The notes under the pieces: model-generated
What the model was told of the DNA's origin: nothing
Seen by the model: only the letters and a program-made list of their open reading frames with translations
Database searches by the model: none
From: Bacteroidales bacterium
GTDB taxonomy: Bacteria; Bacteroidota; Bacteroidia; Bacteroidales; GCA-2748055
Assembly: GCA_029938715.1 (NCBI GenBank)
Contig: JAOZUK010000022.1
Location: 1-34,007 of the forward strand
DNA length: 34,007 bases
Reading direction: 5' to 3'
Part shown: piece after piece, positions 14,048-34,007 of the stretch
Layout of the letters: each line of letters starts with the position of its first letter
Position numbering within the stretch: the first letter of the stretch is position 1
Made by a program: the position numbers and the translations under genes

Positions 14048-14064
14048 CTATAGTTTATAATTCC

Positions 14065-14922
14065 CTAGAACTTGTAAATGGAGAGTGCGTCCTCAAAAAC
14101 CGCTTCCTTGGTAACTAGTAAGGGTTTTTCAGTATCGGATTTCAGATCGAGGTATTGCAGTTTTCCCTGAATGGGAGTATCAATCTTATAGGGTTTGCAT
14201 TGGGCCAATTGTTCCATGGCCCGTCTGGCTCCCTCGTACAGAGCCTGGCGTGTCTCCTCAAACGGATAGAGGAGGGCGGCTTCCCGGGCAATTCCTTCCT
14301 TTACCGCGACAGTTACACACTCCTTTCCAAAAAATTGTTCTGCCTCCCTGCAGGTAGCCTCATCACCTGTAACTAAGATGGTGGGGACATCATAAAAACC
14401 GGCAACTAAAGCGCATTGTGCCAGCTCTCCCGACTCCACACCATTGTACCAATATCTATTTTCACTTCTGGAAGACTGGGTATGGTGCAACACCCCGTCC
14501 TGTGTACCCATCATGGCATGAGCCCCAAACTGCACCATTCCTGCATAGGAATCATCCAACCCCCACATAACACTGGGTCTCGGTACTCCGGTAACATATT
14601 TTACCCCCGATTCCATCATATGGGGAATCACACATTGATTTCCATGTCCGTCAATGACCAGAATCTCTGTGGCACCTCCATCCTTCAATCCCCGGATTAC
14701 CGCAGAAAGATCATCCATAAAATATTCACATGCCTGAATGTTTAAAGGAGTATCTTTTTCCCGGGTCTGTTTAAATTTGAATACACCACTTACCCCTTCC
14801 AGATCAGTAATAATATAGATCTTTTTCTGTGCTGATAAAGTGTTTGCACCAATAATTCCCATCAGTAAAACCAACAGGATCAAGGTCCCAAAATAGTTGT
14901 AAATACGACCAGAAATTTTCAT
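14065..14922 (-). CDS. Exported M55-family D-aminopeptidase (DppA-like)
   Basis: The chosen start (14922) gives 285 aa with a clean signal peptide (MKISGRIYNY, a hydrophobic run, then NTLSAQ). An upstream ATG at 14964 overlaps the previous stop as TGATG and would add 14 hydrophobic residues; it remains a real alternative. M55 enzymes are zinc D-aminopeptidases, originally DppA of Bacillus. The metal-site motifs are present: D40-x-E42 in ITDLEGVSG, His93 in DGHG and His135 in GAHAMMGT. The C-terminal region keeps the VTGDEATCREA block. Family members are normally cytoplasmic and about 270 aa; this one is predicted to be exported. It lies directly after the gene for a GH3/beta-lactamase-fold protein, which suggests D-amino-acid-containing substrates such as peptidoglycan stems (inference). 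Confidence 0.85.
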   Translation of the reverse strand: MKISGRIYNYFGTLILLVLLMGIIGANTLSAQKKIYIITDLEGVSGVFKFKQTREKDTPLNIQACEYFMDDLSAVIRGLKDGGATEILVIDGHGNQCVIPHMMESGVKYVTGVPRPSVMWGLDDSYAGMVQFGAHAMMGTQDGVLHHTQSSRSENRYWYNGVESGELAQCALVAGFYDVPTILVTGDEATCREAEQFFGKECVTVAVKEGIAREAALLYPFEETRQALYEGARRAMEQLAQCKPYKIDTPIQGKLQYLDLKSDTEKPLLVTKEAVFEDALSIYKF

Positions 14923-14963
14923 AATTGCCAGAATAATGTTTATGTATAAAATAGTGAGGCTCA

Positions 14964-17471: not shown

Positions 17472-17483
17472 ATTTTGGATTGA

Positions 17484-20400: not shown

Positions 20401-21860
20401 GGGATGATGTATGGCCAGTCGGTTTTGTCCTCCGAAGTGCCTATCAAGAAGTACTTATCTTCCCAACCAAAATCCATTTCAATAAAGCGGGAATAATCGT
20501 TTGGTGCCAGGGCAAATTCGGCGCCACTGTTGTTGTTTTCGCCTATTTGCCAGATGACTGTTTTTTCGGATGATTTATTTTCGTTTGCCCATTCGTAAAA
20601 CATCTCAATTGATTTAGCCAGAACTCCTGCCGAGCCTTTAAAATCGGCCGAACCAGCCGGAGTGCCGTCCATTTTATACCATTCGTAAAAACCATTGTTT
20701 GCTACAACACGCTCCATCATAGGCTTTGCCAGTTCATAGGCTTCTTCCACAAGACCATAGGCAATAAGCTGCTGAATCATCCGGCCTCCGAACCAGGTCC
20801 AGTCGCCTCCGTTTTGGTATTCGTAAGAAGAAGAAATATTCTTCCCCAATACTTCTTCAGGATAAGTGGGATAAAGTGTTAAACCAATGGAGGATGCACC
20901 GGACAATTCAACATTCTTTTTCATGTGGGAGAGCACAATGACGATTTCTTCGGGGTTTAGCACCCCAGCCTCTATAGCAACTGCAGTTCCTCCGTGATAA
21001 TGAATTTCGTTTTCATTAAACTCTTTCGGGAAGGGCGAACCATCGATGTAGACATGAGGAATAAATTTTCTGCTGCTGCCATCCCATAAATGTAACCTGA
21101 TATTTGAAAGAATATCAGTACGCAATATGTTCCAGCGTTCTTTCTCTTTGGTATCGTTTGTAAATCCTGCCATGCTTTCAAGGGCAATCGCTAACATGGC
21201 ATTATCGTAGGCATCGATGCTCCAATGTGTCAGGCTGTCCACATCTACTACTGCGCCACCTTCTACCTGAACGTCGCCCCAATCGAAGGTTGTAGCCCCG
21301 AATATCAGTCCGTATTTTTCTGAATATCTTTCGGATAAAAGGTATTTCACGGCCAGACTCAGCCTTTCATAAACTGCTTTTCCTGCAACTTTTTCTGTAA
21401 GAATACTTTGATCCTTAGTTTTGATGATGTATTTGCTAATGGCCTGAATCAAAGAAGTTTCCTGGTCGGTTTCAACGGTGTTCTTAAAGCCGATGTGTCC
21501 TGGTGCCGTTTCTGATTCGTAGGTATTCGGGTCGCTCCAGGTAAAAGCTTCGCGGGGGACGTAGCCATCGAGCAGTTCGCCGTTTTCCTGTTGAAAGTGA
21601 AAAAACATGACCAGGTTTTCCCGGATAACAGAATGGTCGTATTCTTCGCACGACAATTCGATAAAGGTATTTAAATCGCGTGCCCACACCATTTGATATC
21701 CCGAGCCGGCATAGAATCCTTTCTTCATCAGCTGGCGGGCCATGCTGTCCACTTTTTGTAAGTTTTCATCAGCCAGAATTTTGGATGCCAGTTCTCTTTT
21801 TGATTTATCATGACAGGCAACCATAAGTGCCAGTACAAGAAATAAACTTACTGTTCTCAT
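17484..21860 (-). CDS. Trimodular six-hairpin glycosidase / RG-lyase-like domain / GH92 alpha-mannosidase
   Basis: This 1458-aa protein has a lipoprotein-like leader (LALMVAC|HDK). Residues ~25-430 are an (alpha/alpha)6 barrel resembling GH63/GH15-type glycosidases: YQMVWARDLN, VETDQETSLIQA, TTFDWGDV and AYDNAMLAIALE. Residues ~433-700 look like the C-terminal carbohydrate-binding part of rhamnogalacturonan lyases (VIWQIGENNN, FLIGTSEDKTDWPYIIPG, WRSSTLNILF). Residues ~705-1440 are GH92: AGYVDTKIGTAH, GPWMPFSMVKMSPDN, MPTNGPLQTQVG, LGCDAFWNTFW, DEDQGQMSAW (catalytic Asp region) and YEIGSPLFEKVEIDL. GH92 enzymes are calcium-dependent exo-alpha-mannosidases, usually about 750 aa, so this one is doubled by its N-terminal half. 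The six-hairpin sugar specificity is unassigned. It lies 15 bp after the GH2 gene. Confidence 0.85.
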   Translation of the reverse strand: MRTVSLFLVLALMVACHDKSKRELASKILADENLQKVDSMARQLMKKGFYAGSGYQMVWARDLNTFIELSCEEYDHSVIRENLVMFFHFQQENGELLDGYVPREAFTWSDPNTYESETAPGHIGFKNTVETDQETSLIQAISKYIIKTKDQSILTEKVAGKAVYERLSLAVKYLLSERYSEKYGLIFGATTFDWGDVQVEGGAVVDVDSLTHWSIDAYDNAMLAIALESMAGFTNDTKEKERWNILRTDILSNIRLHLWDGSSRKFIPHVYIDGSPFPKEFNENEIHYHGGTAVAIEAGVLNPEEIVIVLSHMKKNVELSGASSIGLTLYPTYPEEVLGKNISSSYEYQNGGDWTWFGGRMIQQLIAYGLVEEAYELAKPMMERVVANNGFYEWYKMDGTPAGSADFKGSAGVLAKSIEMFYEWANENKSSEKTVIWQIGENNNSGAEFALAPNDYSRFIEMDFGWEDKYFLIGTSEDKTDWPYIIPGTSDTWGGTWGTSGWRSSTLNILFGIDKLPKKGEWMLSVDILDCNSKNLPLFKVTVNGKSWKYRIPVINENSTIDGEIADSSEYLIEIALENELIRAGGNEIKLTTLEGSWLKFDQVKLEGPGNVRLAENKSVYLRGVEAADYEIETENGSAQTLLLDVEHLSGKPELLVKLDGKEIFSAFVEAKRYTFEASMPKVESPVKSKYEVFVDGEKIQWGKVVREAKTPITPAGYVDTKIGTAHSRWMIAPGPWMPFSMVKMSPDNQNDSWQAGYEPTFESIGCFSHIHEWTVAGLGTMPTNGPLQTQVGDEKDVNSGYRSRIDKSTEEAPIGYYKVVLSDYDIQAEITASTRCGFQRYTFPKDREGSRVLFDLMIPSEYTYNLHEIYIRKTGERTLEGYSHQICPNTWAGGISQEYIVHFVGEFDHAISGFSVWTENGVQEDTEMLKIKNVKDAGAIIEFDTKENNVVQLCTGISYVSIENARENLETEISKPFGWDFEAVRQNNVNAWDELMQRVRITSNDKREKMRFYNNFYRSLCSRNTFSDVNGEWRDADEKIRKLEDPASPALGCDAFWNTFWNLNQFWNLVTPEWSNRWVKSQLAMYDANGWLAKGPAAMEYVPVMVAEHEIPLIVGAYQMGIRDYDVEKAFEAVKKMQTTPGRVVGGGYAGNRDLLTYLKHGYVPYDKGRFSNSLEYSYDDWTVSQFAKALGKEKDYEFFLKRGYYWRNIIDKETGYARMKDSNGEWMPDFDPYKSGANKHYVEGNAWQLTYFVPQDIQALAEAIGKDRFIERLDWGFGESYKTRFNGMNDQYWNYPVIQGNQQSMHFAFLFNWVGKPWLTQKWSRAVIDRYYGYGVANAYLGDEDQGQMSAWFIMASMGLFQTDGGCRVEPIYEIGSPLFEKVEIDLGKQFGRGETFVIEAKNASRLNKYVQSAKLNGKVLNDFKFPASELLKGGRLELEMVAEPNENWGIIEEYN

Positions 21861-21875
21861 TTTATGAAATATTGA

Positions 21876-24518
21876 TTATAATCCAACTGTAACTGGTCTA
21901 CCGTTCCATGGAGCTACTTCCAATTGCATCTCTGAAATCATTGTATCGCTTTGTAGGAGCGACAAATCGATTCCAATCTTCCGTTTCTCTCCAGGAAAAA
22001 GTGTGAAATAATTATCATCCATAAACACCGGAAGCACAAGCTCCCCACTCTTCTTATCGCTTATTTTCATTCGCAAGAAAAAGGCTGTTTCACGTCCGGT
22101 ATTCTCTATAGTTGCATTGATCAAACCATTTTCATTTTTCGTTACAGCCACCTCTAAATCAGCCGGGTTAAGCCTCTCAGGCTCCAGCCAGTCGGTTTCT
22201 TTGCTTGTCAGCCAATACAGATTTTCATCAAGCAGTTCACCTTTGCTGTTCTTAAGTCTTAGCCGGGCAAAATAAAAACCATTTGGCTTTTCATTTCCAA
22301 ATAATTTCCGGATTACTCTGTATGAATTAGCCCCTACACTTGCCTTCGAGCTGCTCTTTTCAATTGAGCTTCCATGGATATCGATTAACTCAGATTCAAT
22401 AAGCAAATCATTGGCATCGAAATAAGTCTGGTTCAGGACACAAATACTGGAATCATTGAGATTTAACTGGGTGTGCAAGGGTTTGGCTCCATGCCGAAAA
22501 CCATAAAAACACCCGTTCTGCTCTAAAAACACATCGTAAAATTGTCCCCGCAGGGATGTCCATGGATTCTGGTTCTTCCAGACCAGCATTCCCGTGTATT
22601 TATCCCACATTCCAGCATTGAAGCCCTCCTGTAAGGCGCGGTATTGTTCGTAATTCACCAGCTGGGCTTTTTTGCAGAAGTCTTCAATTCCAGAAATCTC
22701 GCCAAGCTGCTCAATATATTTTCCATATCCAATGTATTTGTGGTAACGCCAAACATGGTTTGCCCTGTCCCTCACAGGAGGCTGGAGATCTTTTTCGTCC
22801 ATCATCTTTCTCATGGTTTCCACATTCGGAAGTCCCACCGATCCCAGTTCCGGATTAAAGGGATACGACTGTGTGACAAAAAAGCGCTTTGGATCCTGGA
22901 TGCCATAGGGGCCGTCTCCATTACCTCCAATTGTATTTCTAAGAATACTGTCGGAGGTGGATTCATTTACATAATATCGTGTTCCATCATATTTAGGGAA
23001 GATTTCCTTTTCAAGCTTCTCATTGATATCGGGTGGGGGAGGGAATTCGTTCCCACCACACCACATGTATAAGCTTGGATGGTTACGCAGCATTTTAATC
23101 TGGTCAATGGCTGAGCTTATGAACAGGGAATGATCATCGGGATATTCCTGTCGACGAGCCTGGGACTCCTTTTTACGAGGATCCAGCCAGCGTCCGTTGC
23201 AATCGCCAGAAACCCAAAAATCCTGCCATACCAGAAGTCCGTATTTATCACAGGCCTCATAAAATTCAGGACGTTCGGGCATGGACCCGCCCCAGATACG
23301 AATCATGTTCATGTTCATTTCGGAATGCATGCGTACTTCCGCTTCATACCTTTCTGGAGTCAGACGAAGCAAGGCATCAGAAGCAATCCAGTTTCCGCCC
23401 TTGATAAAAATCTTCTGACCATTAATCAGGAATACCCTTCCGCCCACTTTTTCATCGAAATAATTAGAACTTTGCCGCAGGCCAAAATTGACCGATTCTG
23501 AGTCCGATATTAAATCATTCTGTTTGAAATTCAATTTCAGTTTGTACAGATTGGCTTCGCCGAGCTCCGCTTCGCTTCGGTTAGCTTCCCCCATGCCGTT
23601 TGGCCACCAGAGTTTTGGATTCTTGATTGCTATTTCAGCAAATTCAAGGGTAACACTTTCCCCGGCTTTTATGCTTGCAGGCAGCGACCAGGTATTTTCA
23701 CCAAGAGTGGCTACCAGGATACCTTCCTGGTTAAGCTCGGAGGCATTAAATAACTCCGCAGATACCGTTATAAATGCAGGATTTTGTTTTTTTTCGGGCA
23801 CTCGTTTACCCGGAACTCTAGGTTTAACAAAAGGATCACGGATATCAACAGGACCGGTAATTTCAAGAGATACCTGATCCCAGATACCTGTATTCCGGTC
23901 GCGGATCGGACAAATCCAATCCCATCCGGCGGTAAATTGCTGAGTAATCGATCGGGCAATGGTTCCGTCACCTCCCTGTCCTCCGTTCGCATTACCAACC
24001 GGATCCGGAGGTTCAACCAGCACGGCCAGATTATTTGTCCCGCTTTCTTCAAGCATTGGGGTAATCAGATATTTCTCTCTCAGAAACATGCCTTTATGCG
24101 TATCGGAATTAATCCGTTTACCATTCAAAAACATGTTCGCAGAATAATTTATTCCCCTGAATTTCAACCAAACCTGCTCTCCCTGTTTCAATTCTGGCAA
24201 TGAAAAACGATTCCGAAACCAAAAGGTATAATACTCTGCGCCTGTTTCATAAATATCCGGAATCAACTCGTTATTCAATCCAAAGAAAGGATCGGGAACC
24301 TTCTTATTGTGTAATAAAGTAGTTAAAACCGTTCCCGGAACACGGGCTTCCATCCAATCATAAAGTTCAAATTCGGGGGAAGAAACCAAGGTTCCGTCAA
24401 CCGGCACTTCTGAAGCCCGCTTAGCTTTCCATCCTTCATCCAAAAGAATTTCCTGTGATTGCGCGAAGGAAGCAATAGCCGTTATCAAAATAAGGATTGG
24501 AGTTAGTATTTTAGGCAT
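21876..24518 (-). CDS. GH2 protein, endo-beta-mannosidase/exo-glucosaminidase type
   Basis: This 880-aa protein has a signal peptide ending near IASFAQ. It follows GH2 order: sugar-binding jelly-roll (DWMEARVPGTVLTTLL, GINYSANMFLNGKRI), immunoglobulin-like domain, barrel (FIKGGNWIASDALL, MNMIRIWGGSMPERPEFYEACD), then tail sandwiches. Glu491 in CGGNEFPPPP is the acid/base candidate, and Glu557 in FNPELGSVGLPNVET is the nucleophile candidate. The latter block, and QLVNYEQYRALQEGFN with WKNQNPWTSLRGQFYD, resemble plant mannosylglycoprotein endo-beta-mannosidase (Man-beta-1,4-GlcNAc of N-glycans) more than ordinary beta-mannosidase. Exo-beta-glucosaminidase is the main alternative. A short GCTTC-repeat insertion interrupts the WWPNG-x-GE-x-NLY loop. 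The gene lies 65 bp from the upstream gene and 15 bp from the next. Confidence 0.87.
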   Translation of the reverse strand: MPKILTPILILITAIASFAQSQEILLDEGWKAKRASEVPVDGTLVSSPEFELYDWMEARVPGTVLTTLLHNKKVPDPFFGLNNELIPDIYETGAEYYTFWFRNRFSLPELKQGEQVWLKFRGINYSANMFLNGKRINSDTHKGMFLREKYLITPMLEESGTNNLAVLVEPPDPVGNANGGQGGDGTIARSITQQFTAGWDWICPIRDRNTGIWDQVSLEITGPVDIRDPFVKPRVPGKRVPEKKQNPAFITVSAELFNASELNQEGILVATLGENTWSLPASIKAGESVTLEFAEIAIKNPKLWWPNGMGEANRSEAELGEANLYKLKLNFKQNDLISDSESVNFGLRQSSNYFDEKVGGRVFLINGQKIFIKGGNWIASDALLRLTPERYEAEVRMHSEMNMNMIRIWGGSMPERPEFYEACDKYGLLVWQDFWVSGDCNGRWLDPRKKESQARRQEYPDDHSLFISSAIDQIKMLRNHPSLYMWCGGNEFPPPPDINEKLEKEIFPKYDGTRYYVNESTSDSILRNTIGGNGDGPYGIQDPKRFFVTQSYPFNPELGSVGLPNVETMRKMMDEKDLQPPVRDRANHVWRYHKYIGYGKYIEQLGEISGIEDFCKKAQLVNYEQYRALQEGFNAGMWDKYTGMLVWKNQNPWTSLRGQFYDVFLEQNGCFYGFRHGAKPLHTQLNLNDSSICVLNQTYFDANDLLIESELIDIHGSSIEKSSSKASVGANSYRVIRKLFGNEKPNGFYFARLRLKNSKGELLDENLYWLTSKETDWLEPERLNPADLEVAVTKNENGLINATIENTGRETAFFLRMKISDKKSGELVLPVFMDDNYFTLFPGEKRKIGIDLSLLQSDTMISEMQLEVAPWNGRPVTVGL
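23554..23588. repeat. GCTTC short repeat inside the GH2 gene
   Basis: The pentamer GCTTC occurs at 23554, 23569, 23574 and 23584, so all spacings are multiples of five. On the coding strand it yields GEANRSEAELGEANLY, in which GEAN appears twice around a short RSEAEL insert. GH2 relatives normally read WWPNG-x-G-x-x-NLY here without the insert. The frame is kept, and the insert lies in a surface loop. Confidence 0.6.
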
Positions 24519-24583
24519 AGATGAAGGTTTATGGTTTTTCTTTTATTTGGATAATCTTACCGGCTTCAAATAGAGATTCTGAC

Positions 24584-25588
24584 TTACCATTCATATACCC
24601 AGGTGTAAACTGTATATGTTGTCTGTGGAGGATCGTGGAATACCTTGTTTCCGATCTTTTCCCCACACCGGTTCGTAAGCCTTAATCCGTCCTGAAAGAA
24701 TATGGGATCATCCACATGAAAACGATAAGCCGAAAACTCCCGTTTCTCCTTATCAAAATGAGTTAGTCCGGCCAGTTTATTCGCATATCGCCCTGTGTTG
24801 AAATAATAGGTGCCCAAAAAGTAGTCTTCCAATCCGGAGGAAACAAACATAGGCTCTGTCCCCCCGTTTTCATAAGCCCTTATACAGGATTCCATAAAGC
24901 TGAGATCCTTCCAGTGATCTGTATCTCTTAAGCCCTTTGCCTCCATGCTTACCTGGTATAGCATACCGGCTCCTTGAACATCAGCCATTGTGAACTCTTC
25001 TAAAGGTTCAGCGGTATAGTTCTCCAGCTTATAAAGCTTCAGCTTAGCATCATCAGGTAATCTGATTCCATTGAATACGACAGGCAGATTTTCCGTGCCG
25101 CGGATGATCCACCAGAAAGTAGGCTCTCGTTCTGATACATCAGCGTTTGGGGACAGCTGTGCTGTGATCCGGACTTTCTTCGTGAATGGGATCTTGTAGG
25201 TATTGTATATGCCACTTGTTCGCCCCATATTTCCCATTAGTTCTGTTCCCCAGGGAGCATAGCTGTCTTTAAAACCTATTCCATGGCCCAGGAAGAGTTC
25301 CATATCTATGGAGGCTTGTTCTTCTCCATCAACGTAAACCCGAATACTCATATCTTCATGTCCGTTCAGGTCTCCACCAAACCACATGTGGGTCAGGCAC
25401 CCTTTACCTTCATAATTGAAAAGTTCGGTTTCCTGCTCTTTCTTCAAGATTTGAAGCTCTTTGCCCATGGTACCAAAAGTCTTTAAAGAGCTTATATCAG
25501 GATATTGAGCTATCTCCCTGTCCATGACTCTTTGATCACATGACATGGTAGCTAAAACTATAATGATCAATACAAAGGTGTTTTTCAT
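24584..25588 (-). CDS. DUF2961 (GH172-like) lipoprotein
   Basis: This 334-aa protein has a short leader ending in a probable lipobox (LATMSC|DQR). It matches DUF2961, now partly CAZy GH172 (alpha-fructofuranosidase and arabinofuranosidase activities have been shown for some members). The hallmark blocks are CLTHMWFGG, VYVDGEEQASIDMELFLGHG, YNTYKIPFTKKVRITAQ, FWWIIRGTENLP, SSGLEDYFLGTYYFNTGRYAN, AYRFHVDDPIFF and GLRLTNRCGE. The Glu of GLEDYF is in the block where GH172 catalytic acid residues lie. The protein is somewhat short for the family but seems complete, with a single domain. It lies 26 bp after the GH29 gene and 65 bp before GH2, so it is in the operon. An alpha-furanoside or related substituent on the target glycan is inferred. 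Confidence 0.84.
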   Translation of the reverse strand: MKNTFVLIIIVLATMSCDQRVMDREIAQYPDISSLKTFGTMGKELQILKKEQETELFNYEGKGCLTHMWFGGDLNGHEDMSIRVYVDGEEQASIDMELFLGHGIGFKDSYAPWGTELMGNMGRTSGIYNTYKIPFTKKVRITAQLSPNADVSEREPTFWWIIRGTENLPVVFNGIRLPDDAKLKLYKLENYTAEPLEEFTMADVQGAGMLYQVSMEAKGLRDTDHWKDLSFMESCIRAYENGGTEPMFVSSGLEDYFLGTYYFNTGRYANKLAGLTHFDKEKREFSAYRFHVDDPIFFQDGLRLTNRCGEKIGNKVFHDPPQTTYTVYTWVYEW

Positions 25589-25614
25589 CGCAATTTGATT
25601 TACATGCTAATTCA

Positions 25615-27066
25615 TTAAAGATTCGGGAACCTGTATAATTGAATTTCGGATAAAACAGGTGCTGCTCTGGAGTCCCTGATAGTGACCTTAATCTCATCTG
25701 TCTGAACCGTATCAAAAGTCAGGATTCTTTTGTAACCAATGGTTGTTGCCTCTCCAACGACTACAAACTCATCCGCTTTTCTGACTTCAACACAGAAGGA
25801 TTTTATCCGCTGCCCCATTTCGATGTACTCCTGAAGAAGAATAGCATTGACCTCCTGAATCTTATCAAGCTGGATGATGATCTCGGCCGTAGTCTGGTTT
25901 TCAGGCGCCGCCCAGTAGGTAAGGGGATTTCCATCAATTAGCTTTTTTTCCTTAAATCCAAAGCTGGATACATCGGTTTTTATCTTCTGATTGAAGGCTA
26001 AATTGGTTTTGAAAGCTTCGTCAAGAATCTGCTTGAATCCTTTGAGTGATTCAAGGTCATTCTCGTGCATGATTCCTCTGGTATCCGGAGGTAAACCGAG
26101 ATTGAATGATGCATTTCGACCCACAGTCTTCAAGTAATGATCAAACAGAACTTCGGCTGATTTTACAGATTGATTCTGATTTTCATGATAATACCATCCT
26201 GGCCTGATGGAGAAATCACATTCCGACGGCATCCAGAATTCCCCATCTTCATGGCCTTCGGTTGCTTCCCAGTATTTCGTAAATCCCGGGGCGGGCTTAC
26301 TATCATCATCCCGCCCTTTTGGGGTGTACATGCACCAGCTGGTTTCACCGGCAGATCCTTCCTCATTGCCTACCCATCTGACATCCCCCATGTCGGAGAA
26401 TATGACCGCATTGGGCTGCAGTTCCCTGACAATACTATAAATCGAATCCCAGCCGTAATAGCTAAAGCGATCAATATTTCTGATGGTATCGGCTCCGCCA
26501 TACCAGCCGTCACCGCCATTGGCCCCGTCGAACCAGACCTCAAAAAGTTCCCCGTATCCTGTAAGCAGTTCCCTGAGCTGTTCATAATATATCGGGATAT
26601 ATCCGTCTTGACCATACACAGCTGCATTACGATCCCAGGGGGAGAGATAAACACCGAATTTCATATGGGCCTTTTCACAGGCCAATTGAAATTCTTTAAC
26701 CATATCGCCCTGTCCATTCTTCCAGGGCGACCTTGAGATGTTATAATCGGTAGTCTTTGTTGGCCAGAGACAAAATCCTTCGTGATGCTTGCAGACCAGA
26801 ATGATTCCTTTCAAACCACCCTCTCTGGCTGAGTTAACAATTTGATCCGCAGAGAATTCTGTTGGGTTGAAGATGGCTGGACCGGTATCACCATATCCCC
26901 ATTCTTTGTCTTCGAAAGTTATCAGGTTAAAACAGACCAATCCATACATTTCAACCTCATGCCAGGCAAGTTGGCGAGTTGTTGGAACAGGGCCTGCAGG
27001 TTCGATGCTCTCTGAACATCCAAAGAATGTGGTGACCAGTAATACCAGGATCAGAAGGTGTTTCAT
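25615..27066 (-). CDS. GH29 alpha-L-fucosidase with C-terminal discoidin-like domain
   Basis: This 483-aa protein has a probable lipoprotein leader (VTTFFGC|SES). The catalytic barrel of GH29 is clear: the substrate-pocket block LVCKHHEGFCLWPTKTTDYN, the nucleophile Asp180 in EVWFDGANG, and Glu282 in MPSECDFSIRPGW as acid/base candidate. A readable acid/base in this position points to the GH29-B group (alpha-1,3/1,4-fucosidases), which attack branched fucose. The last ~120 residues form a jelly-roll of the F5/8 type C/CBM32-like class (KLIDGNPLTYWAA, TAEIIIQLDKIQEVNAILLQE, VTIRDSRAAPVLSEIQLY), normally for sugar binding. It overlaps the calcineurin-like gene by 4 nt upstream and leads the DUF2961 gene by 26 bp. 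Confidence 0.9.
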   Translation of the reverse strand: MKHLLILVLLVTTFFGCSESIEPAGPVPTTRQLAWHEVEMYGLVCFNLITFEDKEWGYGDTGPAIFNPTEFSADQIVNSAREGGLKGIILVCKHHEGFCLWPTKTTDYNISRSPWKNGQGDMVKEFQLACEKAHMKFGVYLSPWDRNAAVYGQDGYIPIYYEQLRELLTGYGELFEVWFDGANGGDGWYGGADTIRNIDRFSYYGWDSIYSIVRELQPNAVIFSDMGDVRWVGNEEGSAGETSWCMYTPKGRDDDSKPAPGFTKYWEATEGHEDGEFWMPSECDFSIRPGWYYHENQNQSVKSAEVLFDHYLKTVGRNASFNLGLPPDTRGIMHENDLESLKGFKQILDEAFKTNLAFNQKIKTDVSSFGFKEKKLIDGNPLTYWAAPENQTTAEIIIQLDKIQEVNAILLQEYIEMGQRIKSFCVEVRKADEFVVVGEATTIGYKRILTFDTVQTDEIKVTIRDSRAAPVLSEIQLYRFPNL

Positions 27067-28055
27067 GGATGTTTGAGTTTAATTTCTTTATCAGAGATAT
27101 ATGGTACGATCGGATAGCCAAATTCAGACATATCCACACCTAATTCCTTGGGAGAAGGACCAACAAAGGTGGTTTTCTTCCCATATATGTTCAATGTGTC
27201 TGGAGAGATTTCAGCAATAGCCCAGATAGGATCTTTATAGGGCACCGTATATTTTATCCATGGATGACTTTTATCTATTTCTTCACTGTAACGTATATGC
27301 TTGAATTTGTCGCCTAACCATTGATAGGACATGCTATTAATTTGTATATAGTGGATGCCATTTATATTATTATAGTAGTCCTGATGGTGGTGCCCCGAAA
27401 AAACAAACTGCACCTTTTGAAAACCAGCTTGCTCGTTGGCCCGCTCCAATACCAATCTGCTCTGGGTGGCATTATGTATACCTCCCAAATCATTGTCTAA
27501 ACCTTGATGACTAAAAATTATAGTTGGCAACTTTGTTTTCTCCAAATCGTTTTCTAACCAATTCAGTTGTTCTTTACCAATGAATCTTGCGTATCCAGAA
27601 GGACGATTGGGTGAAGGGTCATTATCATTTCCATCTAAGACAATGAAATGGTATCCATTGCTATCAAAAGAGTAATATCTGCCTTCAGCATTCCAATATT
27701 CTACAACCTGTTCACGTGTAAAACCGCCATCCATATCATGATTTCCTATCACATGGTGTTTTTTGCCCAGGAAGCTATTCCAAATGGACATAAACTCCAG
27801 ATTGTAATCATAGGGGCGACAGAAATCACCTAACTGAATAATAAAATCAAGTTCTTTCTCTGATGCATCTTCGATAAACGCTTTTAGCCTTGTGTCGGCA
27901 TCATGCATTATATCTTTATGTACATCTGCACAGATACCAAACTTCAATGATTTCTTTCTTCCTTTTGCCACTGCGTTCGCACTCAAACTCAGTGGAAGCA
28001 TCATGGTGGTGCACCCAACTGAAAGAAGCTTAATAAAAACTCTTCTATCTTTCAT
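27063..28055 (-). CDS. Tat-exported calcineurin-like metallophosphoesterase
   Basis: This 330-aa protein starts with a Tat-type leader (MKDRRVFIKLLSVG). All five metallophosphoesterase blocks are visible: D-x-H in CADVHKD, GD in IQLGDF, GNHD in VIGNHDMDGG, the H of IIFSHQG and the GH-x-H block FSGHHHQD. They form a dinuclear metal site for phosphomono- or diester hydrolysis. Export fits removal of phosphate or a phosphodiester-linked group from glycans, or nutrient phosphate scavenging. It overlaps its neighbours by 4 nt on both sides, so it is translationally coupled to an EEP-fold protein and a GH29 fucosidase. The stretch from here to 30223 is visibly more AT-rich than the distal operon genes. 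The substrate is unknown. Confidence 0.87.
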   Translation of the reverse strand: MKDRRVFIKLLSVGCTTMMLPLSLSANAVAKGRKKSLKFGICADVHKDIMHDADTRLKAFIEDASEKELDFIIQLGDFCRPYDYNLEFMSIWNSFLGKKHHVIGNHDMDGGFTREQVVEYWNAEGRYYSFDSNGYHFIVLDGNDNDPSPNRPSGYARFIGKEQLNWLENDLEKTKLPTIIFSHQGLDNDLGGIHNATQSRLVLERANEQAGFQKVQFVFSGHHHQDYYNNINGIHYIQINSMSYQWLGDKFKHIRYSEEIDKSHPWIKYTVPYKDPIWAIAEISPDTLNIYGKKTTFVGPSPKELGVDMSEFGYPIVPYISDKEIKLKHP

Positions 28056-28951
28056 TTTTGAATTATATTAAACTCTGCCATCATTGGATAGTGGTCTGAT
28101 AGCATATGCGTTTCTTCCTGGTTGAAAATTTCAACCTTCTTACATGTTTTTGCCAATGCAGGGCTGGCAAGGATATAATCAATCCGCTCCCTGTTCTGTA
28201 CAATTGTCTGGGATGTTTGGTTGAATTTCCCAATGAGAGCTGGTGTTGGAAATGTATAGGCTTCGTGCAGTTCAATTCTGCCTAAACAAAGGTCAACTGC
28301 CGGACAGGCCAGGAATTCAGAAATTACTGAGTAGTCAAACTCACCCATTCGAAGGTTGGAGTATTCTTTGTTTTTGTTTTGCAGGAGTTTATTTTTCAGA
28401 TCTGTGCTATTTTCTATCCAATAGGCATCAAAAGGGGAAAGAGAATTGAAGTCCCCAAGTATGATATACGAATCGTTTTTATTCTTCTTTATTCTTTCTG
28501 TTACAACTCTTGCTTCATCCAACCTGATATGGGAATCAGCAGGAGACAAATGAACAACAAAGAAATCAATACCATAAGATTCGCAATGCAATAACCCGTG
28601 CCAGAATGGATCTTCAATCCGTTCTTTTAAACTAATTGGCCTGTTTGAGGTAAGGGCGGTTGGATAGCCTTCGGTTTTTAATAATTGTACATACTGATGT
28701 CCCCATTTTAAAGCATCTTCTTTAAGCTTTTCTTCAGTATAGTTACACAATTCCTGCAATGCAAGTACATCTGGTTTTTGGCCTTTTATCCATTCAATAG
28801 TGTTTTCCTTACGAATAGAGTCTTTTCCCCAATCAAAACCATTCCAGATGTTGTAGGTCATGATTCTTAAGTTGGATTTAAGCGGGATTTGTGCAACCGC
28901 TAAATCCACAAACACAAGCACGATTAAAACCAGTAAGCTACTTCTCTTCAT
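28052..28951 (-). CDS. Secreted endonuclease/exonuclease/phosphatase-fold hydrolase
   Basis: This 299-aa protein has a signal peptide ending AVAQ. It carries the EEP superfamily order: RIMTYNIWNGFDWG, the catalytic Glu in VLALQELCNY, the His/Asp block FFVVHLSPADSHIR, GDFNSLSPFDAYW, the RIDYILASPAL strand, and the final DHYPM. The fold supports phosphodiester or phosphomonoester cleavage (nuclease, sphingomyelinase, inositol phosphatase). Being secreted and overlapping a calcineurin-like gene by 4 nt, it probably works on the same phosphate-bearing substrate; a nuclease role is an alternative. It is the second gene of the operon, 6 bp after the GH43-like gene. Confidence 0.85.
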   Translation of the reverse strand: MKRSSLLVLIVLVFVDLAVAQIPLKSNLRIMTYNIWNGFDWGKDSIRKENTIEWIKGQKPDVLALQELCNYTEEKLKEDALKWGHQYVQLLKTEGYPTALTSNRPISLKERIEDPFWHGLLHCESYGIDFFVVHLSPADSHIRLDEARVVTERIKKNKNDSYIILGDFNSLSPFDAYWIENSTDLKNKLLQNKNKEYSNLRMGEFDYSVISEFLACPAVDLCLGRIELHEAYTFPTPALIGKFNQTSQTIVQNRERIDYILASPALAKTCKKVEIFNQEETHMLSDHYPMMAEFNIIQK

Positions 28952-28957
28952 ATGTAT

Positions 28958-30178
28958 TTAATCAGTTTCCAATGGGATATGAACATTAAAAGAAACTCCG
29001 TCTGTTCTGCTGCCTATATCTACTATTGAGCAAGCTGCATACAACACCAATGGGGTTCCATCTTTATCCAGTAAGAGCTGGGGTCTTTCCAGCCGGTTAA
29101 CATGAATCGTGTCACTGGGACTAAGAACAACTTCCTTTTTCATAAAAAAGGGATTTTCAGGTTTGGTCCATGTAATACCATCCACAGACTCTAAGAGGGC
29201 AAGTCCGGGTTTGCCTTCTGTTATTCTCCCTGTGAAATCCTTGAGCAGGACATAGAATTTCTCATGCTTATTATGGTACCAGACATAAGGGTCTTCACCA
29301 CTGGCGATGGTGCCGTCATCATTTCGAATATCAAATACGAAATGATCTGTTGCCGTAAATGGCCCCGTCGGAGAGTCTGCTATTGCTACACCATGTACTC
29401 CTCTCCAAACGGGATCGTATAAGTTTCCTTTGAAGTATAACAGGTACTTTCCGTCGGAATGACGTTGAACCACTGAAGGGTTAACTACAACTATATTATC
29501 AGGTTTAGCCTTTGTCCCTTCAGGGGAGGGCATGAAAATGTTATCTGGTTTTACTCGTGTTCTTGGAGCCAGGAGAGGAGAATCAAATCTTTTATAATTT
29601 CCTTTTACCAGGTCATCAAAACTGTTAAACTCAATAACTCCAATACATTGATTTTGTTGAACTCTATTGCGTTTATTTACTAATTCTCCTATTGTCCCCT
29701 TTGGCTGAATGCCAGGATCTTTTCCTCCTCCATAATATAAGTAGTACCTATTGTTAAATCTTTTAATATGCGGATTATGGACCATTTGAGCATCCCATGC
29801 TGTTGTATCTCCCTCTAATCTTCTACCCTTCAAAACGATTTTCTGAAATTTGAAATCCCTGTCAGGATATTCAGAGATGGCATATGCAATTTTTGAATGC
29901 AGAACCCAGGAATCAGAGAAACGAGGGATCGTATCCCCACATTCCCAAGTGGAAAAGAGCATGTGATATTTATTATCATCACCTTTGATAACACTGGCAC
30001 CCCAAACAAATCTATCAGGATCGTGTAACACAGATGGGCCTGATAAAATGTTACCTGTTACTTTCGCATCTACTGGTAAAGCCTCGACTTTTAGAGCTTT
30101 TTGTCCATTGGTCACACAACCTGAAATAATAATTGCTATGAGAAAAATGAAAAAAGCAAGTGGGAAAGATATCTTCAT
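28958..30178 (-). CDS. GH43-like five-bladed propeller lipoprotein
   Basis: The ATG at 30178 (MKISFP) is preferred over 30223 because it begins a standard lipoprotein signal ending IIISGC|VTNG. The 406-aa product has propeller strands of the GH43/GH117-like clan: SVLHDPDRFVWGASVIKGDD, KYHMLFSTWE, DAQMVHNPHIKRFNNRYYLYYGG, NPSVVQRHSDGKYLLYFKG, GVAIADSPTGPF and EDPYVWYHNKHEKFYVLLKDF. Acidic residues in DPDRFVWGAS and EDPYVW are candidate active-site positions. Specificity cannot be assigned: anhydrogalactosidase, arabinofuranosidase and phosphorylase-like relatives share this pattern. It is the first gene of the ten-gene operon, divergent from the DUF362 gene with a 128-bp spacer, in which I see no convincing consensus promoter. 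Confidence 0.8.
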   Translation of the reverse strand: MKISFPLAFFIFLIAIIISGCVTNGQKALKVEALPVDAKVTGNILSGPSVLHDPDRFVWGASVIKGDDNKYHMLFSTWECGDTIPRFSDSWVLHSKIAYAISEYPDRDFKFQKIVLKGRRLEGDTTAWDAQMVHNPHIKRFNNRYYLYYGGGKDPGIQPKGTIGELVNKRNRVQQNQCIGVIEFNSFDDLVKGNYKRFDSPLLAPRTRVKPDNIFMPSPEGTKAKPDNIVVVNPSVVQRHSDGKYLLYFKGNLYDPVWRGVHGVAIADSPTGPFTATDHFVFDIRNDDGTIASGEDPYVWYHNKHEKFYVLLKDFTGRITEGKPGLALLESVDGITWTKPENPFFMKKEVVLSPSDTIHVNRLERPQLLLDKDGTPLVLYAACSIVDIGSRTDGVSFNVHIPLETD

Positions 30179-30306
30179 TATCCTAAAGTTAATAGTACAA
30201 TAATTAAAGTGAAAATAGCACATATCTTTCGGAAGTGCATTTTTTTTTAGTACATTTCATGGACTCCAATAAATACTTGTTTGAACTGCATAGACCTAAA
30301 TATTGC

Positions 30307-31860
30307 ATGAAACGCAGGAACTTCATAAAGTATGGAGTGAGCTCACTCCTGGTAGCACCGTTGATCCAGTACGGATGTGGCAGCGGGATTTATGAAGACC
30401 TTTATGCTTCACCCATTGTCAGTGTCAGGGATCAACTTGCCACACGCATGCAATTCAGACCTGGGCGTGTGATCAATTCTCTCGGAATCAGAGTAGATAA
30501 AGTAGAATCCTTTGACATCCAGAGTATGCGCATAGCCACCATGGTGGACACGGCAGTCATGAAATTAACCGGGCAGCCAAGTTTGGGTAAAGCGTGGGAA
30601 TCACTTTTTCCAGCCGGTCATCCCAACGCAGATACTAAAATCGGGATCAAACTTAATTTTTCCTACGGAGAGAAAAATAATGACATTGAAAATGACTGGG
30701 CGACAAATGTGTGTCCCTTTGGACCAAAATCTGCGGTCACCAACGCTATTGTCACCGGTCTTACTCAAATGATGGACGGAGCATTTCCTCCGGAGAATAT
30801 CACCTTGTTCGAAAGAATATACTCCCGGGGTAGCCGCCGGAATTTTCCTGTCATTCAGGGGTACCGGCCAGTGTTTCCAGACAGATCCAACCTCTACAAA
30901 GATTCCAGGCCAGGTGCCAGCAGGATCCATTGGATCAGCTCTTCAGGTCCATTAGAACTTCCGGAAGATGCACCGGGTTTTATCGCTGCTCCGGATTTTC
31001 CAAAGAAATACCGGGCTCCTCAGCGTATATTCTCCGGAGTATACCAGCATGATTTTCTGATCAATTACATCATCGCCAAAGACCACAGAGAGGCAGGGAT
31101 CACAGGAGCTATGAAAAACAACTACGGCTGCACGGACAATCCGAGGGGTACTCACGGTTTGTCCTGGACCGACAAGAATAGCTCTTTCGCGGGTACCCGC
31201 TTGTGCGGTCCTGTCTTTTATAAGAACATCAACCAACAGGCCCCTTTCATTCTAAATTTCCTTGACGCACTTGCAGGCATCTATCACGGCGGCCCCTTGT
31301 CAGGGAACATATTTCATGCGAATACCATAGCGGTCAGCAAAGATCCGGTGGCCCTGGATTCCTACGAGCTGGGCCTGATCAACCAGGCACGCGAAGCCAA
31401 TGGCATGCACTTGATCAGTACTGAAGACGGATGGACTCCCAGGGATCACCCCAACGCTTCCTATTTGAGGATCTCTTCTGAAAATCATGGACTGGGAAGC
31501 ATGTCCATGGACCATCTTGAACCTTTGGACCTTTCAGCTGCTTCTGACCCGGTGGAAATCCCTCAATTTGATAAATGCCAATCCAGGATAGGTGACATCA
31601 GAAAAGTAAACAAAGATTACCAGGTACAGTTGTTTCTTGACCAATCGGGAAGAAAACACTCCATTGAATCCCACATTGAAGATATGGAGGGAAATGTAAT
31701 CAAGACTTTACGTTCATCCAACACCGTATCCGATGTAACTGAGCTCCGGTGGGATCACACTGACGACAACAAACTTCAGGTGGAAGACGGTATTTATACC
31801 TGGTATGTAAAGGCAGATGATCTGCTGCACTCTGGTACAATTAATGATAAAGTAATCTGA
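30307..31860 (+). CDS. Tat-exported DUF362 protein with FlgD-like C-terminal domain
   Basis: The ATG at 30307 gives a Tat leader (MKRRNFIKYGVSSLLVAP); an upstream GTG at 30235 would only bury it. The 517-aa product contains a DUF362 domain (residues ~80-385): IGIKLNFSYG, INYIIAKDHREAG, TGAMKNNYGCTDNPRGTHG, FLDALAGIYHGGP and HANTIAVSKDPVALDSYE. DUF362 proteins often carry 4Fe-4S ferredoxin domains; none is visible here, though scattered Cys residues exist. The C-terminal ~90 residues read like the immunoglobulin-like fold of FlgD (IEDMEGNVIKTL, VEDGIYTWYVKA). The function of the family is uncertain. It heads a plus-strand operon, ending 1 bp before the amidohydrolase start, and diverges from the big minus-strand operon. 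Confidence 0.82.
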   Translation: MKRRNFIKYGVSSLLVAPLIQYGCGSGIYEDLYASPIVSVRDQLATRMQFRPGRVINSLGIRVDKVESFDIQSMRIATMVDTAVMKLTGQPSLGKAWESLFPAGHPNADTKIGIKLNFSYGEKNNDIENDWATNVCPFGPKSAVTNAIVTGLTQMMDGAFPPENITLFERIYSRGSRRNFPVIQGYRPVFPDRSNLYKDSRPGASRIHWISSSGPLELPEDAPGFIAAPDFPKKYRAPQRIFSGVYQHDFLINYIIAKDHREAGITGAMKNNYGCTDNPRGTHGLSWTDKNSSFAGTRLCGPVFYKNINQQAPFILNFLDALAGIYHGGPLSGNIFHANTIAVSKDPVALDSYELGLINQAREANGMHLISTEDGWTPRDHPNASYLRISSENHGLGSMSMDHLEPLDLSAASDPVEIPQFDKCQSRIGDIRKVNKDYQVQLFLDQSGRKHSIESHIEDMEGNVIKTLRSSNTVSDVTELRWDHTDDNKLQVEDGIYTWYVKADDLLHSGTINDKVI

Positions 31861-31861
31861 T

Positions 31862-33115
31862 ATGAAAACATCCATAATGAAAGTTTTGTGCGCTGTGACA
31901 TTAGTGGTTGCCTGTCACACTATCGGGGCACAGGAATACGACCTGCTGATTAAGAATGGGCACCTGATCGATGCTAAAAATGAACTGGACCAGGCCATGG
32001 ATGTGGCGGTTCTTGATGGGAAAGTAGCAGAAGTGTCTGTCCATATTCCCATTGAAAAAGCAAAGAAAGTTATCGATGCCACCGGTCTGTATGTAGTTCC
32101 GGGCTTGATCGATATTCATGTACATGTTTTCGCAGGCACACGGCCTGATGAATACATCAGCAACAGCTATACAAGTCTTCCGCCGGACGGATTCACCTTC
32201 CGATCCGGTGTGACTACCGTTGTGGATGCAGGAAGTGCAGGATGGAAGAATTTCAAGACCTTCCGGGAACAGACCATTGATCATTCAGATACACGGGTAC
32301 TGGCCTTTCTCAATATCGTAGGAAGTGGAATGAAAGGAGGTGCCATTGAGCAAAATTTGGGGGATATGGATCCCAAATTAACCGCTATTGTGGCCAGACA
32401 GAATGCTGATGTCATAGTAGGAATCAAGCTGGCGCATTACAGCGGACCTGAATGGGATCCTCTGGAACGAACTGTGGAGGCCGGAGAGTTGGTAAACATG
32501 CCTGTTATGATAGATTTTGGAGGGCATATCCCGGAATTGTCGATGGAAACCCTTCTGCTTGAAAAGCTGAGACCAGGAGATATTTACACCCACTGCTTTG
32601 CACATGTAAGGGGAAGGATCCCCGTGGTTGATGAGAACGGTATCGTCAGGCCCTGTGTGAAGGAGGCCCAGGACTTAGGGATTGTCTTTGATGTGGGACA
32701 CGGAGGAGGTAGCTTTGTATTTGAACAAGCCATGACTGCTATGGATCAGGGTTTTATGCCTAACAGCATCAGTACGGATCTGCATACCGGGAGCATGAAT
32801 GGCGGCATGAAAAACATGGTCAATATCATGTCCAAGCTCATGACTATGGGTATGTCTTTACAGGAGGCTATAGAGCGCTCCACCTGGAAGCCGGCAGTAT
32901 ATATACAGAGAGAGGAACTGGGGCATCTGAGCGTGGGTGCTGTGGCTGATATGGCTTTGCTGAACATGATAGAGGGGGACTTCGGATTTGCAGACACGAA
33001 AGGAGGGAAGATCCGTGGAGATAAAAAGCTGGAATGTGAATTGACCCTCAGGGAAGGAAAGGTGGTATGGGACCTGAATGGTATCTCCCTGCCGGAGTGG
33101 GAAAAAGTGGATTAG
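31862..33115 (+). CDS. Exported cog3964-type amidohydrolase
   Basis: This 417-aa protein has an export signal that could be a lipobox (VTLVVAC|HTIG) or an SPI site after TIGA. It is a metal-dependent amidohydrolase: DLLIKNGHLIDAKNELDQA, GKVAEVSVHIP, GLYVVPGLIDIHVHVFAG (metal HxH), a Lys in VGIKLAHYSG, TYTHCFAH-type His strand, GHGGGSFVF, and STDLHTGSM with the catalytic Asp. The arrangement fits cog3964 (deacetylase/dihydroorotase-like). Characterised members are, to my knowledge, reported to cleave acetyl esters or amides of small acids. In other bacteria these genes are cytoplasmic and sit next to SelA-like PLP genes; here RidA and the SelA-like gene follow 37 bp downstream. The signal peptide is the odd part. 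Confidence 0.84.
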   Translation: MKTSIMKVLCAVTLVVACHTIGAQEYDLLIKNGHLIDAKNELDQAMDVAVLDGKVAEVSVHIPIEKAKKVIDATGLYVVPGLIDIHVHVFAGTRPDEYISNSYTSLPPDGFTFRSGVTTVVDAGSAGWKNFKTFREQTIDHSDTRVLAFLNIVGSGMKGGAIEQNLGDMDPKLTAIVARQNADVIVGIKLAHYSGPEWDPLERTVEAGELVNMPVMIDFGGHIPELSMETLLLEKLRPGDIYTHCFAHVRGRIPVVDENGIVRPCVKEAQDLGIVFDVGHGGGSFVFEQAMTAMDQGFMPNSISTDLHTGSMNGGMKNMVNIMSKLMTMGMSLQEAIERSTWKPAVYIQREELGHLSVGAVADMALLNMIEGDFGFADTKGGKIRGDKKLECELTLREGKVVWDLNGISLPEWEKVD

Positions 33116-33152
33116 TTTTTGAAGTGCACACCAATATTTAAAATCTCGAAAT

Positions 33153-33629
33153 ATGAAAAAGAATGAACCAAACTCCAGAAGAAAAGCTTTAAAGGGAGTA
33201 CTGGCAGCCTCGGTTGTCGGATTGGGAGTATCACATGTAAATGCTGCAACTCCGAAAGAAAGTAAACCGAATAAAATCGCATCTAGCATCACCACACAAG
33301 ATGATGTTCCGCTCTTTTCCGGAGGTGTTGCCTATGGAAATTTACTATTCATTGCCGGTAAAGGAGCCCACTTCGATGGAGACATAGCTGCCCATACGGA
33401 TCACGTTCTCAAAGAGCTGGAGAAAGAGCTGGTGAAAAATGGCTCATCCATGGATAAGGTGCTGAAAGTGAATGTTTACCTTGCTGACCTCGCCGATTAT
33501 CATGCCATGAATAAGGTGTACAGGGGGCGCTTCGGTGAAAATCCACCTGTAAGAACCACTGTGGCTACTTATGGAGGTGTACCCGGTGATTCGCTGGTGG
33601 AAATCGATTGTATTGCAGCACTGGACTAA
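33153..33629 (+). CDS. Tat-exported RidA (YjgF/UK114) family protein
   Basis: This 158-aa protein has a Tat leader of ~32 residues (NSRRKALKGVLAASVVG, ending VNAA). A full RidA domain follows: FSGGVAYGNLLFIAGKGA, THVL-like region TDHVLKELEKELVKNGSSMDKVLKVNVYLADL, MNKVYRGRFGENPPVRTTVATYG, and the closing LVEIDCIAALD. The Arg of PPVRTTV is the catalytic arginine of RidA proteins that hydrolyse 2-aminoacrylate and similar imines. RidA proteins are typically ~125-130 aa and cytoplasmic; here ~30 extra residues are the export signal. Placed between an exported amidohydrolase and an exported PLP enzyme (1 bp gap to the next start), it probably hydrolyses the imine that the PLP enzyme makes outside the cytoplasm (inference). 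Confidence 0.88.
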   Translation: MKKNEPNSRRKALKGVLAASVVGLGVSHVNAATPKESKPNKIASSITTQDDVPLFSGGVAYGNLLFIAGKGAHFDGDIAAHTDHVLKELEKELVKNGSSMDKVLKVNVYLADLADYHAMNKVYRGRFGENPPVRTTVATYGGVPGDSLVEIDCIAALD

Positions 33630-33630
33630 G

Positions 33631-34007
33631 ATGGTTACCAGACGAGCATTACTTAGAAACCTGGCCAGTCTTCCCCTGGTGGGAGGCCTGTTTAGTACAG
33701 GACTGCTGGCCGGCAGTCCGGTTCCCATCCAAGGGATCCGGAGAGACTACTTCAAGGAACTGGGTGTCAGAACTTTCATCAACGCAGCCGGGACCTATAC
33801 TTTTATGACCGGGTCACTTATGCACCCTGAAGTGATCGATGCCTATAACTATGCCACCAATGAATACGTTCTGTTGGATGACCTCCAGGACAAGGTGGGG
33901 GAGAGAATAGCCAGGCTCCTGCAATGTGAGGCAGCCACCGTTACTTCCGGGGCCGCTTCAGCCATTACCCTGGGTACTGCAGCGGTACTCGCTGGGATGG
34001 ATCCGGA
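33631..34007 (+). CDS. Tat-exported SelA-like PLP-dependent enzyme, cut by the window edge
   Basis: The first 125 codons are present, open to the right edge. The N-terminus is a Tat leader (MVTRRALLRNLASLPLVGG, ending LLAGSP). The mature part matches selenocysteine-synthase-like/D-glucosaminate-6-phosphate ammonia-lyase-like PLP enzymes: YFKELGVRTFINAAGTYT, MHPEVIDAYNYATNEYV, LDDLQDKVGERIARLLQCEA and TVTSGAASAITLGTAAVLAG. These enzymes eliminate ammonia from amino-acid or amino-sugar-acid substrates. The active-site Lys lies beyond the window. It starts 1 bp after the RidA stop, so coupling is tight. True SelA proteins are cytoplasmic and lack such leaders, so a selenocysteine role is rejected. 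Confidence 0.83.
   Translation, partial: MVTRRALLRNLASLPLVGGLFSTGLLAGSPVPIQGIRRDYFKELGVRTFINAAGTYTFMTGSLMHPEVIDAYNYATNEYVLLDDLQDKVGERIARLLQCEAATVTSGAASAITLGTAAVLAGMDP

Follow-up and report, generated by a model that had tools for sequence, protein, structure and literature searches.

The question raised by this locus is whether a set of catabolic enzymes can work together outside the cytoplasm. The window, by which we mean the whole stretch of 34,007 nucleotides analyzed here (contig JAOZUK010000022.1 of the Bacteroidales assembly GCA_029938715.1), ends in genes for an amidohydrolase (AHS), a RidA protein and a SelA-like pyridoxal phosphate (PLP) enzyme, each opening with an export leader. 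To our knowledge, the cytoplasm is regarded as the usual site of catabolic PLP lyases, RidA and keto-acid aldolases. No title describing an exported version of these enzymes appeared among the literature matches listed, most subscription journals being outside that search. Leader conservation gives strong support to export of the trio, which we consider very likely on sequence grounds. It is also somewhat probable, in our judgment, that the trio serves an extracytoplasmic (periplasmic) pathway for a 2-acetamido-aldonate, for example N-acetylglucosaminate.

Export Leaders

The unit consists of four genes:
30307..31860, plus strand: DUF362 protein with a Tat-like leader, first in the unit (PF04015, E 1.2e-14, with a scan query started two codons inside the gene)
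31862..33115, plus strand: AHS, an amidohydrolase/deacetylase family metallohydrolase with a Sec leader at about residues 1–23 (NF006689, 440 bits against a cut-off of 371)
33153..33629, plus strand: RidA with a twin-arginine leader (PF01042, E 5e-19)
33631..34007, plus strand: N-terminal 125 residues of the SelA-like (DgaE-related) PLP enzyme with a twin-arginine leader (TIGR01437, E 9.7e-17 for the fragment)

The order is DUF362–AHS–RidA–SelA-like, with spacings of 1, 37 and 1 bp and a leader on every protein. The initial annotation had described these coordinates, gaps and leaders, DUF362 included, and all of them stand. The DUF362 gene starts at ATG 30307 (N-terminus MKRRNFIKYG), and a DUF362 gene with an RR leader recurs in locus L009. 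The AHS leader, MKTSIMKVLCAVTLVVACHTIGA followed by QEYDLL, is of the Sec type. The twin-arginine motifs are SRRKALKG in RidA and TRRALLRN in the SelA-like enzyme, and TatC is present in the genome of the window.

A scan with AHS produced 62 named loci, mostly from Bacteroidota, with four from Acidobacteria by record titles. Leaders were scored by a home-made rule, Tat-like or, more loosely, Sec-like, and genes of at least 150 amino acids in the same loci served as controls. The Tat leaders that had been read in the window for RidA and the SelA-like enzyme are borne out: a Tat-like leader was found on 32 of 32 RidA proteins and 63 of 64 SelA-like proteins (the miss is a gene fragment in L010) versus 15 of 189 controls, counts that are not independent, since 14 loci are Dyadobacter, some loci share a genome, and the SelA-like and RidA genes of the window enter twice, once from the window and once as L070. 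Shuffled N-termini passed the Tat rule in 177 of 3200 trials for the SelA-like proteins and 17 of 1600 for RidA. The Sec-like rule was passed by 76 of 80 AHS proteins, 22 of 22 second RidA proteins, 6 of 6 RraA proteins and 34 of 35 GSDH-cytochromes, but these counts carry little weight because the rule is loose and also passes 102 of 189 controls and 16 of 16 SBF membrane carriers. A stronger sign of export for AHS is the AQ near the end of the leader, present in 72 of 79 AHS rows (the full-length members, not 5'-open, of a cluster of 91). A lipobox-like motif occurs in 2 of the 79, from the window and L008. Of the earlier reading of AHS as "Sec or lipoprotein", the Sec-type leader is upheld, and the lipoprotein option has neither gained nor lost; processing of the window's AHS could be by signal peptidase I or as a lipoprotein.

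The leaders are kept in close and distant relatives, near-complete genomes included. An alignment of 17 SelA-like proteins (chosen from 66; 46–89% identity to the first) shows no change at either arginine, and the adjacent residues vary. Among 392 genomes drawn separately from the phylum, nine, counting the window's own, have the SelA-like gene. The eight others hold it at 17 places, 14 of which have a twin-arginine leader (one in a truncated frame) as read with a filter that itself requires RR; the remaining three are longer paralogues that start KRR, KRR and SRK. One drawn protein, from genome G225, lies at zero tree distance from the L030 protein. Leaderless relatives of the SelA-like enzyme, RidA and AHS start at the catalytic domain. 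In the case of AHS, the domain is preceded by 1 to 7 residues in eight leaderless amidohydrolases from other phyla and by a median of 25 in the 79 rows here. In a tree of 77 SelA-like proteins, from which two long reference paralogues were omitted, a single branch (100/99) divides the 70 leader rows from the rest, which number only seven and are leaderless; branches are long in places. Finally, 12 RraA frames, including that of the window's genome, open by eye with a Sec-like leader.

Mis-called starts were considered as a source of the leaders and rejected, since the leaders recur across the related loci and in the 392-genome draw and the arginines are invariant. The initial annotation had named leaders missing from close homologues as a reason to drop its reading; they are present.

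The SelA-like Enzyme

The window does not end with its contig. The contig (G000:C510) is 43,571 bp long, and 100 N at 34008–34107 follow directly after the window; the SelA-like frame then resumes and stops at 34518. The gap stands for about 137 codons, with residues 1–125 and 263–400 of the orthologue in L009 matching on either side at 89% and 87% identity. Since only those parts are covered, the PLP lysine of the window's copy falls in the gap. A lysine missing from the downstream part was another ground on which the initial annotation would have been given up. The window's copy is unreadable at that point, but the lysine is present in the orthologues of L008, L009 and L015 (SGGKG) and in 69 of 69 leader-bearing Bacteroidota rows. 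These rows omit members shorter than 395 amino acids or 5'-open; of 16 loci from the phylum search, L076, L084, L086, L087 and L088 gave no frame and L081 a wrong one, and L076, L081 and L084 were used for leaders only.

The L009 orthologue matches TIGR01437 with E 2.4e-57, scoring 194.5 bits against a cut-off of 385.3, and reaches 157.3 bits with NF047797, below its cut-off of 600. By sequence, we regard the SelA-like enzyme as related to the DgaE family while below the family cut-off. AlphaFold2 models were made of AHS and of the SelA-like orthologue (mean pLDDT 84.9 and 83.8). The best fold match of the latter is 7lc0, followed by Cap15 (8t7j) and SelA structures. DgaE, which acts on D-glucosaminate-6-phosphate, is the closest solved relative both by sequence and by fold.

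PMC9529869 gives His163 as the proton donor of DgaE, Arg301, Arg332 and Arg346 as lying near the phosphate, and Arg226, from docking, near the carboxylate. It proposes that the H163A mutant releases an enamine. It prints the PLP lysine as Lys-217, the residue numbered 213 in the 7lc0 chain. All three phosphate arginines and His163 are kept in 4 of 4 leaderless DgaE-annotated proteins. In the 69 leader-bearing rows the arginines are kept in 0, 1 and 0 cases, respectively, and His163 stands in the aligned column once; at position 226, 51 rows have Lys and 17 have Arg. These losses fit an unphosphorylated substrate and release of an enamine to RidA, as far as can be judged from sequence.

Two irregularities were seen among the SelA-like genes. 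The loci L086, L087, L088 and L093:7701-9299 carry longer paralogues (532 residues; frames of 560 to 575) with starts KRR, SRR or SRK, and at L010:2508-3694 the gene lies in two overlapping frames, through an assembly error or a frameshift.

The Amidohydrolase and RidA

The AHS model matches 8je0 best, then 2ics, 8wzy and 2ogj. Its protein departs from the NF006689 metal-site pattern HxH, Lys, His, His, Asp, which we take to be the metal-site motif, at the β5 His: H86, H88, K189, H244 and D306 are kept, and the β5 His is replaced by D218. Across the 79 rows, HxH, His244 and Asp306 are present in all and Lys189 in 78. The β5 ligand is Asp in 77 and Glu in two of these leader-bearing proteins, and His in 8 of 8 leaderless relatives. 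His192 is found in 79 of 79; its partner in the leaderless proteins is unstable, being His in one of eight in an insertion-rich alignment. A paper describing structure 8je0 was not found in the literature search, and the literature text searched yielded no mention of Atu3266 or Oant2987. Three or four adjoining paralogues of the AHS cluster occur in L054, L058, L061, L065 and L067, from Daejeonella, Pedobacter and other Sphingobacteriales.

RidA exceeds the PF01042 cut-off (68.9 against 27.3 bits) and falls below that of the narrower TIGR00004 (61.1 against 106.25). An Arg105-like residue, presumably the catalytic Arg of RidA, is aligned in 33 of 34 rows, and a Glu120-like residue in 34 of 34. 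A leaderless RidA and SelA-like pair was also observed at L096:5347-7188, in an ABC-transporter cluster on a Rhizobium plasmid; its SelA-like enzyme has retained two of the three phosphate-site arginines as well as His163.

Gene Partners

AHS and the SelA-like gene occur together in 53 of the 62 AHS loci. These 53 include any RidA in 41, a GSDH-type sugar dehydrogenase in 35, a lactonase in 18, an SBF transporter in 15 and RraA in six, where identities come from Pfam on cluster representatives and the lactonase assignment of cluster c14 was made by eye. Each drawn genome's best dehydrogenase homologue is within 10 kb of a SelA-like gene in seven of the eight genomes, and its best lactonase homologue likewise in seven of the eight; RraA is that close in four of the eight (distances from coordinates). 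Plasmid pACIX902 of Granulicella tundricola (Acidobacteria) has a single row of genes for RraA, the SelA-like enzyme, RidA, a second PLP enzyme, AHS, a lactonase and a BBE-domain protein. By eye, six of these seven have leaders, that of RraA being the weakest; the BBE protein, which we assume to be a possible sugar oxidase, is without one. The initial annotation had proposed a search for the gene order with leaders in other genomes; leader-bearing genes of the module recur in the related loci, in the eight drawn genomes and on this plasmid.

A Proposed Periplasmic Pathway and Its Alternatives

From the gene order, the leaders, the families, the catalytic and lost residues and their conservation, all read from sequence, we infer the substrate, the order of steps, the role of RidA and the localization as follows. 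AHS, exported unfolded through Sec, would act on a 2-acetamido-aldonate (N-acetyl-D-glucosaminate is one example) and take off its acetate. The resulting 2-amino-aldonate would lose water through the SelA-like enzyme, which would pass through Tat already folded and holding its PLP. The aligned column of nearly all exported enzymes is without the His that protonates the product on DgaE, so an enamine or imine may be what is released. RidA, also exported through Tat, would convert this to ammonia and a 2-keto-3-deoxy sugar acid, thus serving product release in the exported set. An exported RraA-type aldolase, encoded elsewhere in the window's genome, may then cleave the sugar acid. Many relatives would make the aldonate beforehand with an exported sugar dehydrogenase, which comes with cytochrome c, and a lactonase. 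Given the dehydrogenase, lactonase and RraA partners and the loss of the phosphate-site residues, a 2-acetamido sugar acid without phosphate is a better candidate than N-acyl amino acids at large, which narrows the substrates first suggested, N-acyl amino acids and amino-sugar acids. The periplasmic deacylation and deamination of the initial annotation gains export through leader conservation and stays the best reading of the chemistry; that the enzymes have these activities in the periplasm is still a matter of inference.

Besides the looseness of the Sec-like rule, a number of observations weigh against this pathway. No GSDH match was found in the window's genome, nor a close lactonase relative (there are four SGL-family matches, one of them weak), and RraA sits on another contig. 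The module is distributed patchily: among 17 further genomes of the genus, AHS was found in 4. The His-to-Asp change at β5 leaves the AHS metal site unproven. The SelA-like enzyme falls short of the TIGR01437 cut-off, and its second-closest fold, Cap15, performs O2-dependent chemistry. Alignment of the His163 loop is difficult, and a His stands somewhere in it in 22 of the 69 exported enzymes. Residue losses of this kind are also seen apart from export: His163 is absent from a leaderless archaeal protein of Haladaptatus, together with all three arginines, and from a leaderless Sinorhizobium paralogue, together with two of them. Nor is the link between loss of the His and RidA a strict one, since 12 of the 53 loci with AHS and the SelA-like gene have no RidA nearby, and the leaderless Rhizobium cluster has RidA though its SelA-like enzyme retains His163.

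Three other explanations were weighed against these facts. AHS could free D-serine, D-threonine or a similar β-hydroxy D-amino acid in an exported N-acyl-D-amino-acid pathway, with the SelA-like enzyme and RidA yielding pyruvate or 2-oxobutanoate. An M55 D-aminopeptidase gene in the window would suit this, as would the activity on D-Ser and D-Thr that PMC9537276 records for OngC, the deaminase of a pathway compared below. We nevertheless think it unlikely, since the recurrent sugar dehydrogenase, lactonase and RraA neighbors would be superfluous for such substrates and the closest solved relative in sequence and fold uses D-glucosaminate-6-phosphate. A degree less likely again is that the SelA-like enzyme is no ammonia-lyase and carries out some other periplasmic PLP reaction (O2 chemistry like that of Cap15, an aldol reaction or racemization), with AHS acting on an unknown ester or amide. 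The rank of Cap15 among the fold matches, the missed family cut-off and the loss of the phosphate-site residues and His163 speak for it; RidA and RraA as partners, however, suit enamine and keto-acid chemistry, and DgaE is the best match in both sequence and fold.

The export on which these readings depend could itself be mistaken, if the leaders were annotation artefacts or non-functional and the enzymes cytoplasmic. They were judged by a simple rule applied to sequence, but an arginine pair held invariant down to 46% identity, the recurrence of leaders on RidA and SelA-like genes across the set and the start of leaderless relatives at the domain make this very improbable.

Returning to the acetamido sugar acid pathway, its largest form would have Bacteroidota and Acidobacteria running the whole oxidative amino-sugar route outside the cytoplasm. 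The dehydrogenase or oxidase, lactonase, His-to-Asp deacetylase, PLP lyase, RidA and RraA would all be exported, and RidA would take over the product release done in the cytoplasmic lyase by its own histidine. The periplasm would receive the ammonia, the acetate and a keto acid or pyruvate, and an SBF-type carrier would import the carbon. We put this forward tentatively, as slightly more doubtful than probable. If the pathway is true, many Bacteroidota deaminate, and perhaps cleave, sugar acids before uptake, releasing ammonia and acetate outside, and RidA is employed where no cytoplasmic target is endangered. The exported enzymes look like a natural swap of the DgaE His163 for a partner protein, which bears on why DgaE keeps that residue. 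The altered metal site of the exported amidohydrolases is a second testable point.

Neighboring Genes

One further gene adjoins the unit:
contig 34518-36236 (L070:1519-3237), adjoining the SelA-like gene: FAD_oxidored protein (Pfam E 8.2e-93)

Its product has a twin-arginine leader (VGRRRFIKQCG), and the gene also comes after the SelA-like gene in L008 and L009. It is a candidate oxidase of this genus and a candidate source of the aldonate. Next comes the gene of a CBM9 protein, in which a lipobox can be seen by eye. On the minus strand at 12740–30223, the window encodes glycan-degradation genes (GH92, GH2 with an exo-glucosaminidase-type Ig domain, a fucosidase and DUF2961), and the M55 D-aminopeptidase lies in the same interval beside a beta-lactamase-family protein. 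A second GH92 is found past the window end. These neighbors are compatible with amino-sugar glycans, without being proof of them.

Comparison with Known Systems

A close functional counterpart is the Ong pathway of Pseudoalteromonas prydzensis, as described in PMC9537276. OngB and OngC turn N-acetylglucosaminate into 2-keto-3-deoxygluconate (KDG), acetate and ammonia, and loss of OngB, OngC or the RidA-family protein OngD each abolished growth on N-acetylglucosaminate, the role of OngD being unknown. The roles of amidohydrolase deacetylase, PLP deaminase and RidA recur in both systems, and Ong uses N-acetylglucosaminate without prior phosphorylation, as proposed for the exported set. The differences are that OngB is D-aminoacylase-like (PMC12017989), that OngC is of fold type III, that a KDG kinase follows, and that OngB and OngC are predicted to be cytoplasmic (PMC9537276), which agrees with the cytoplasmic counterpart cited in the initial annotation. 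AHS belongs to NF006689 with fold matches 8je0, 2ics and 2ogj, and the SelA-like enzyme has the fold of 7lc0, 8t7j and SelA, as compared with OngB and OngC by their descriptions. Since OngB and OngC belong to other families, the exported set works like Ong yet is not a member of it.

The DgaE systems are closer in family. Among solved structures DgaE stands nearest to the SelA-like enzyme, the two share the PLP lysine, and AHS–DgaE pairs occur in three of four DgaE-annotated loci. The initial annotation had assumed that this amidohydrolase family is paired with DgaE-type lyases elsewhere, and this is confirmed: leaderless AHS, DgaE and KDGP aldolase stand together on records of Klebsiella pneumoniae (with a lactonase as well), Clostridioides difficile and Bartonella, and a Lacticaseibacillus paracasei stretch has DgaE and KDGP aldolase with phosphotransferase system genes. 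Unlike the exported set, these systems are leaderless, act on a phosphorylated substrate (PMC9529869) and keep His163 and the three arginines; an annotated RidA was not found in any of the four loci, for which the plasmid gene tables are incomplete.

The Granulicella row is a further close system. It has the SelA-like enzyme, RidA, AHS, lactonase and RraA with leaders by eye, and its AHS shares Asp218 and His192. It differs in coming from Acidobacteria and in adding the BBE-domain protein and the second PLP enzyme.

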